From the NCBI GenBank assembly GCA_035301805.1, contig DATGTQ010000011.1, positions 1-34,244 on the forward strand: 34,244 nucleotides of DNA. Reading direction: 5' to 3'. The notes beneath the pieces are model-generated. The model saw only the letters and a list, made by a program, of their open reading frames with translations. It did no database searches and was not told the DNA's origin. This document shows positions 32,857 through 34,244 of this stretch, in pieces. This DNA comes from Tissierellales bacterium (GTDB taxonomy: Bacteria; Bacillota; Clostridia; Tissierellales; DATGTQ01). The position numbers and the translations under genes were made by a program. Every line of letters begins with the position of its first letter. The stretch's first letter is position 1.

Positions 32857-33615
32857 ATGCTTGTTAAATCAGAAGGAATAGTACTAAAAGAGATACGTTT
32901 TAAAGATACTAGTAAAATACTTACTATTTTTTCTAAAGATTTTGGAAAAATTCATGCTATGGCCAAAGGAGCCTATAGGCCTAAAAGTCAATTAACTGGA
33001 TGTACTCAAGTATTTGGTTATAGCGATTTTACATTTTTTAAAGGGAGAAATTTTTATCATATAAATCAGGGAGATATAATAAATTCCTTCTATGATTTAC
33101 GAGAAAATATGGAAAGACTTATGTATGGTTCTTATATATTAGAATTAGTAGAATATTCTATAGTAGAGGAAGAGCCAAATGAAAAACTTTTTTTGCTTTT
33201 AGTAAAAGGATTAAAAGTACTATCTAGATTAGAAAAGGATTTTTTAAAGTTTGTAATAGCTTTTGAATTAAAGTATATTTCTTTTTTAGGATATAGGCCT
33301 TATTTAGATAAGTGTGTAATATGTGGAAATAATAATTACAATAGAGTAAAATTTAGTTATCATCAAGGTGGTATAATATGTGATAAATGTTTTGAGACAG
33401 AGCCATATTGTAAAAATATTGATAGAAATGTAATTATGCATTTAAAACAATTGTTGTATTCGCCTTTAGATAAGCTAGAATCCATTAAAATTCCTAAAGA
33501 TGTCATGAGTAACTTACATGAAATCATGGTAAAATATATATTAATAAATATTGAAAAAGATAACTTTAATTCATTGAACTTAATCGAAACTATTACAAAA
33601 AATGGAGGAATATAA
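32857..33615 (+). CDS. recO: DNA repair protein RecO
   Basis: A 252-residue RecFOR-pathway protein that loads RecA and anneals SSB-coated strands. The N-terminal OB fold (1-80) starts MLVKSEGIVLKEIRFKDTSK. A helical domain follows, and a four-cysteine zinc site is visible: CVIC (153, 156) and CDKC (175, 178). ATG 32857 follows only a weak site (GGATGTGA). It is the last broadly conserved gene of the run; B. subtilis also has recO directly before glyQS. Confidence 0.95.
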   Translation: MLVKSEGIVLKEIRFKDTSKILTIFSKDFGKIHAMAKGAYRPKSQLTGCTQVFGYSDFTFFKGRNFYHINQGDIINSFYDLRENMERLMYGSYILELVEYSIVEEEPNEKLFLLLVKGLKVLSRLEKDFLKFVIAFELKYISFLGYRPYLDKCVICGNNNYNRVKFSYHQGGIICDKCFETEPYCKNIDRNVIMHLKQLLYSPLDKLESIKIPKDVMSNLHEIMVKYILINIEKDNFNSLNLIETITKNGGI

Positions 33616-33616
33616 T

Positions 33617-34030
33617 ATGGATATATCTCTTGAGGATATTGATAAAGTAGTAAAAAGAACAAACGTAAGCTATGGAGAGGCAAAAGAGGCTTTAGTGGGA
33701 AATGATGGGGATGTGATAAAGACAATTATTTATATAGAACAACAACAAAAAACTTGGGGCGAAAATTTGACTAATAAAGGGGAAGAAATAACCGATAAAG
33801 TTAAAGAGATTCTTAGAAAAGGAAATGTAACCAAAATAATAGTAAAAAAAGATAATGAAATAATTATGAATATTCCAATAACAGCAGGAGTAATAGGAAG
33901 TATAGTGGCAGCACCAGCGGCCTTATTAGGATTGGGTGCAGCGATGCTTTCAAAATGCGAAATTGAAATAATGAAAGAAGATGGGAAAATAATTAATGTA
34001 AATGAAACTCTAGAAAAAGATAATAAGTGA
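33617..34030 (+). CDS. DUF4342 protein with N-terminal UBA-like domain
   Basis: A 137-residue protein. Residues 3-40 resemble a UBA/TS-N three-helix motif (LEDIDKVVKRTNVSYGEAKEAL), residues 45-70 are a charged linker, and 75-130 contain a glycine/alanine-rich hydrophobic pair of segments (ITAGVIGSIVAAPAALLGLGAA) within DUF4342. No function is established. A longer frame from 33602 uses an ATG inside the recO end, but GGAGG fits ATG 33617, two bases after the recO stop. It is the final gene before the T-box leader. Confidence 0.85.
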   Translation: MDISLEDIDKVVKRTNVSYGEAKEALVGNDGDVIKTIIYIEQQQKTWGENLTNKGEEITDKVKEILRKGNVTKIIVKKDNEIIMNIPITAGVIGSIVAAPAALLGLGAAMLSKCEIEIMKEDGKIINVNETLEKDNK

Positions 34031-34045
34031 AAAGGTATATGGCTA

Positions 34046-34074
34046 TTGACAATAAGCTTGTTTTTTGCTAAATT
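34046..34074 (+). promoter_or_regulatory. Promoter of the T-box-controlled gene
   Basis: A perfect TTGACA (34046-34051), 17 bases, TGC-TAAATT (34069-34074), an extended -10. Transcription would start near 34081. Confidence 0.75.
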
Positions 34075-34080
34075 ATATTC

Positions 34081-34193
34081 TATAGACAAATTTTTATAAA
34101 GTCACAATGAGAGAATACCTATTTAAGGGTATTAAATAGGGTGGAATCGCGGAAGAAACCTTTCGTCCCTATATAGGGATGTAAAGGTTTTTT
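34081..34193 (+). promoter_or_regulatory. T-box riboswitch (decision module), apparently without room for stem I
   Basis: A stem III-like hairpin (34114-34119 with 34128-34133) precedes the T-box AGGGTGGAATCGCG at 34138-34151. Antiterminator pairing: AGGG (34138-34141) with CCCT (34167-34170), then GCG (34149-34151) with CGT (34164-34166), leaving the seven-base bulge TGGAATC. The competing terminator is 34156-34169 with 34176-34190, followed by T to 34193. TGGA in the bulge pairs with an NCCA end whose discriminator base is U, as in tRNA(Gly). The usual bulge is TGGNACC, so one C is T here. No stem I or specifier codon could be placed in the roughly 30 bases upstream. Confidence 0.85.
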
Positions 34194-34237
34194 GTGCTAC
34201 ATAGTACTAAATGGTATAAATTAGGGAGGAAGATAAA

Positions 34238-34244
34238 ATGTTTT
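34238..34244 (+). CDS. Start of a T-box-regulated gene, probably glycyl-tRNA synthetase
   Basis: Only ATG TTT T is present, behind TTAGGGAGG at good spacing. The T-box discriminator match (U73) and the conserved order recO-glyQS suggest a glycyl-tRNA synthetase. Seven bases cannot prove it; other T-box genes remain possible. Confidence 0.55.

Follow-up and report, generated by a model that had tools for sequence, protein, structure and literature searches.

The leader that closes the stretch of DNA analysed here (the window, 34,244 nucleotides, which makes up all of contig C11 in a draft genome of 2.6 Mb) is probably a decapitated class II glycine T-box that now acts as a fixed attenuator with basal read-through and is heading towards a terminator-only leader. 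Exactly Stem I is gone and the rest is kept, which makes the leader a ready-made test of the discriminator acting alone, and it is notable because Stem I is described as an obligate part of every T-box (so called in a passage of the review PMC7583486). Across its relatives, one riboswitch at one locus has been lost about eight times independently, giving a graded series in which the terminator outlasts the sensor; the series shows by which steps an essential gene loses an RNA switch and which parts stay. The features of the locus are as follows.

33602–34030, + strand: DUF4342 gene, the conserved upstream neighbour (from the sequence and relatives)
34046–34074, + strand: promoter TTGACA-17-TAAATT with an extended -10 TG, in the same place in 40 of 44 glyQ leaders
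34081–34108, + strand: short 5′ leader in place of Stem I, from the predicted start, with the deletion junction at about 34092/34093 (from the alignment)
34109–34113, + strand: GAGAG purine motif (RRRxG), 5′ of Stem III (from the sequence)
34114–34133, + strand: Stem III hairpin, 7 bp, −6.2 kcal/mol, followed by AA at 34134–34135 (from the fold and relatives)
34136–34172, + strand: antiterminator, helix A1 34136–34141/34167–34172 and helix A2 34149–34155/34160–34166 (from the fold)
34138–34152, + strand: T-box sequence AGGGTGGAATCGCGG (from the sequence)
34142–34148, + strand: T-box bulge UGGAAUC, with UGGA (34142–34145) complementary to the UCCA of tRNA-Gly
34158–34193, + strand: intrinsic terminator, hairpin 34158–34188 and six T at 34188–34193 (from the fold)
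34224–34229, + strand: Shine-Dalgarno GGGAGG of glyQ, outside the terminator (from the sequence)
34238–34244, + strand: first 7 bases of glyQ (glycyl-tRNA synthetase alpha), truncated where the contig stops and resuming on contig C179 from residue 31

The contig ends with recO, the DUF4342 gene, the leader and the first 7 bases of the next gene; the DUF4342 stop lies at 34030 and the T-box motif begins 107 bases downstream. In relatives, the DUF4342 gene is followed by glyQ or glyS, and the genome of the window yielded a single glyQ, located at one end of contig C179 and beginning there at GlyQ residue 31. A scan of genome contigs with the DUF4342 protein returned a single distant locus only. 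Synteny indicates that the gene downstream of the leader is glyQ and that C11 and C179 are adjacent, with the junction in an assembly gap which, given that residues 1–30 are missing on C179 and 7 bases of the gene lie on C11, would span about 85 bases. By synteny and contig C179, the leader thus stands before a glycyl-tRNA synthetase gene, as a class II glycine T-box does.

Stem III and its flanking motif complete the 3′ discriminator domain. The hairpin has the RRRxG motif on its 5′ side, as described in a section of PMC7583486, and AA on its 3′ side, the flanks it has in RF00230. The T-box, seven-base bulge, antiterminator and competing terminator that the original prediction had read from the letters are borne out by folding: the antiterminator comes out as the lowest-energy fold and leaves the 7-base bulge unpaired, and the overlapping terminator is the stronger of these two mutually exclusive folds (−13.1 against −16.2 kcal/mol, the latter with z −5.5). 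Stem III and its flanks were absent from the list in the original prediction, and loss or decay was not among its options. The fold of the whole leader has a z of −4.2. As the Shine-Dalgarno sequence lies outside the terminator, the output would be transcriptional. The T-box keeps 14 of its 15 bases, the only change being the U at 34147, which is C in glyQ relatives. This C-to-U change was considered as proof of a dead T-box and rejected, as five full T-boxes of the order, with scores of 115–121 bits, have the UGGNAUC bulge too.

The tRNA genes, as read by RF00005 and ARAGORN, cover part of those in the draft genome. All three tRNA-Gly isoacceptors end in UCCA, the complement of the UGGA of the bulge, in keeping with the RF00230 pairing of a UGGN bulge with the NCCA end of the tRNA; among the tRNA genes read, only those for Gly, Thr and Cys have a UCCA end. 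The search with the Rfam T-box model that the original prediction had proposed gave a match to RF00230 at 34043–34173 (49.2 bits, E 1.1e-9), but this lies below the gathering cut-off of 93 bits and the Stem I portion of its alignment is mostly deletion; no T-box reaches the cut-off anywhere in the whole window. In an Rfam scan of 20 intact relatives, 16 were over the cut-off (93.5–112.6 bits, against 49 for the window).

The promoter directly follows the DUF4342 gene, with TTGACA-17-TANATT immediately after the stop in 40 of the 44 glyQ leaders. A consensus promoter scan alone gave a count of promoter-like sites near the shuffled expectation, and the promoter is better supported because its position is conserved in these leaders, far beyond what the scan provides. 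From this conserved promoter, placed at the same coordinates in the original prediction, transcription is predicted to start at about 34081, some 57 bases before the T-box; that distance and the 107 bases from the preceding gene had been given earlier and were confirmed on the sequence. The 33 nt before Stem III (GAGAG included) give a folding energy of −0.8 kcal/mol and are free of GGN triplets, so a glycine specifier cannot be present. A Stem I whose specifier codon reads the cognate tRNA belongs to RF00230 and is missing here, as first reported from the letters alone. Five intact leaders that were checked gave 128–130 nt, −21 to −26 kcal/mol and a GGC or GGA candidate specifier.

Alignment with the orthologous leaders leaves one gap in the window, spanning Stem I and its 5′ flank, and the distance from the -10 element to the T-box is 146–165 bases in 30 intact relatives, against 63 in the window and 52 in the leader L025. 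By this comparison of sequences, Stem I is removed almost exactly, through a deletion of about 95 bases between promoter and Stem III; no close relative that would date the deletion was found among the genomes searched. Stem III is readable by eye in 31 of 31 intact leaders, and its arms, also read by eye, differ yet match across relatives (AATACC/GGTATT, GATGCC/GGCATC, GTACA/TGTAC). When the Stem III stretch of L024 or L026 is folded in isolation, a competing hairpin has the lowest energy. In L020 and several glyS leaders (e.g. L051 and L054), the specifier region reads GGGAGC, not GGCAC, which suggests a GGA rather than a GGC specifier.

In thirteen of the 44 glyQ leaders of the order, either Stem I or any recognisable T-box is missing. 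Mapped on a 44-row tree built from RecO, DUF4342 and GlyQ, these 13 need 8 changes (7–9 over bootstraps), at least 6 of which are forced by well-supported branches. The window and L045 could share one loss event, as the tree leaves the window's place beside L045 unfixed. The window is the only leader missing Stem I alone, and its branch is long (0.3 changes per site in three proteins). Measured against shuffled leaders, 10 of the 13 have a T-box motif at chance level, with L025 keeping 13 of the 15 bases, L028 keeping 11 and the window 14, and Rfam found no T-box in the 12 other lost leaders when these were scanned with the window as positive control. A terminator-like hairpin is present in all 13, representing about eight lineages, and one or both arms of the ancestral terminator do better than shuffled sequence in each of them. 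Eight of the 13 have an interrupted or shorter U tract, against 2 of 28 intact leaders; shorter U tracts as a compensation for the loss were set aside, the kinship-corrected sign test being not significant. A base common to terminator and antiterminator has changed from G to A or T in L022, L028, L034 and L043 (read as CATCCC or CACCTC) and in L069 (CTTCCC), and in none of 31 intact leaders. This restriction of the shared-base change to lost leaders is as expected with one of the two constraints remaining.

Several of these leaders have features of their own. In L022, L034, L043, L072 and L076, the glyQ leader is terminator-only, with the hairpin shortly before glyQ and the T-box vanished. An open frame of about 22 codons in L072 and L076 runs from the foot of the terminator hairpin through the hairpin and ends in the glyQ Shine-Dalgarno sequence; it is possibly due to chance and possibly a sign of ribosome-coupled antitermination, and the corresponding frames in other lost leaders are interrupted or different. 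The first 450 bases past the DUF4342 frame in L065 contain a repeat of about 200 bases with a palindromic core, present in several copies before glyS and occupying the place of the relatives' T-box.

A general loss of T-boxes was ruled out, as each of the 249 genomes of the order that were searched (249/249) has a T-box match, most of them at least 8, the glycine-loss lineages included. The window's genome has 15 other T-boxes, which precede aspS, leuS, ileS, asnS, valS, trpB, argS, cysK, trpS, proS, metS, hisZ, serS, thrS and tyrS (genes named by eye from their proteins). Because these other T-boxes are retained, the loss is specific to the glycine locus. One further T-box, L015 (G000:C139:3439-3601, before a tyrS-like gene), is 163 bases long, scores 77 bits, below the cut-off, and may have a shortened Stem I.

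We propose that the ancestor was an ordinary glycine-specific, class II transcriptional T-box before glyQ, from which one internal deletion of about 95 bases would have taken Stem I with its specifier, K-turn and elbow-binding tip, leaving the 3′ discriminator and terminator in place. An ordinary T-box of this kind switches glyQ on when tRNA-Gly is uncharged and, with charged tRNA-Gly, ends transcription by default; losing Stem I would therefore leave the operon fixed in that basal state. Nascent RNA without Stem I would be unable to select tRNA-Gly, the terminator would form by default, and glyQ would be expressed at a basal read-through level with little response to glycine starvation, a state that could be tolerable if glycine is rarely limiting. 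The related lineages appear to display later steps, in which the T-box decays to chance level together with Stem III, the hairpin is retained and, in several cases, the U tract becomes interrupted; the interruptions (8 of 13) could raise the basal level, although this trend is not significant after correction for kinship.

The loss is probably recent on its branch, and since the window was chosen for a T-box that is still recognisable, a recent loss is the expected catch. Some observations speak against decapitation. The discriminator is undamaged on a long branch, a state compatible with continued selection no less than with a recent loss, and the C-to-U change at 34147 is shared with the five full T-boxes of the order. 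The U tract still has six T, so that permanent termination in front of a gene that is essential and single-copy would carry a high cost unless the basal level of read-through is enough.

A rival reading is a working T-box without Stem I, in which the discriminator alone would bind the UCCA end of uncharged U73 tRNAs (Gly, Thr and Cys here) and stabilise the antiterminator, giving a low-affinity and less specific sensor of deacylation. RRRxG, Stem III, AA, bulge, A1 and A2 are indeed all intact and preserved on the long branch, UGGA matches all three tRNA-Gly and, of the other tRNAs read, only those for Thr and Cys, and part of PMC7583486 describes the discriminator as necessary and sufficient for sensing aminoacylation; we nevertheless consider such a sensor unlikely, given that it would be unique to the window's genome, that the other loss events have left the T-box motif partly or completely eroded and that, according to the same review, disrupting the elbow-binding tip of Stem I, and with it the elbow contact alone, lowers affinity by up to 60-fold and abolishes read-through in vivo. 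It is likewise doubtful that the leader is a natural discriminator-only T-box sensing the deacylation of all UCCA tRNAs (Gly, Thr and Cys) with no anticodon reading. The ultra-short sensor of the acceptor end suggested in the original prediction has the intact discriminator in its favour, but the relatives indicate a deletion in lineages that repeatedly lose the riboswitch.

Fixed attenuation and message protection are candidate roles for the persisting hairpin. An independent function for the terminator hairpin that is left, for instance shielding the 5′ end of the glyQ transcript or holding attenuation at a fixed level, overlaps the reading of a decapitated T-box and would account for the hairpin outliving the T-box; as a separate explanation we think it improbable, with the hairpins of all 13 lost leaders in about eight lineages and the antiterminator-shared base changes in five of these leaders, set against 0 of 31 intact leaders, on one side, and the U-tract shortening (8 of 13 against 2 of 28), not significant after kinship, on the other. 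We give equally little credence to an assembly or strain-mixture artefact, whereby Stem I would be missing only in a contig that ends about 50 bases past the terminator: the source assembly is a draft of 282 contigs with a contamination estimate of 4%, the contig end is nearby and glyQ is split over two contigs, but promoter, Stem III and terminator stand in the expected order and independent genomes of the order have lost the same region, L025 having an even shorter leader. A full T-box with Stem I further upstream and a promoter in or before the DUF4342 gene, a suggestion of the original prediction alone, is refuted and merits almost no weight, as Rfam gives no other match in 33500–34244, the upstream sequence is the conserved DUF4342 gene and the relatives have Stem I after the same promoter, just past DUF4342.

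With the class II glycine transcriptional T-box (Bacillus subtilis glyQS type; RF00230), the window shares the position before glyQ, Stem III with RRRxG and AA, the UGGA bulge and the antiterminator with competing terminator, whereas it is without Stem I, specifier, K-turn and elbow-binding tip and scores 49 bits, against 93–113 for the orthologues passing the cut-off. Class III T-boxes have a short Stem I with a specifier and a Stem II, and act on translation. The window resembles these ultrashort Stem I forms (actinobacterial ileS) in its reduced 5′ domain, but has no Stem I or Stem II at all, and its output is a terminator with the Shine-Dalgarno sequence outside it. The literature searched (titles, abstracts and passages of a few papers, with subscription papers outside) yielded no report of a natural T-box that lies before a gene and lacks Stem I. 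The degenerated T-boxes in the relevant part of Wels et al. 2008 (PMC2494555) are similar in that T-box parts were lost before a gene whose relatives are T-box regulated, but it is one transporter group that is marked there as degenerate, and the 40 of 40 T-box motifs without any upstream motif reported in that part lay away from genes and were discarded.
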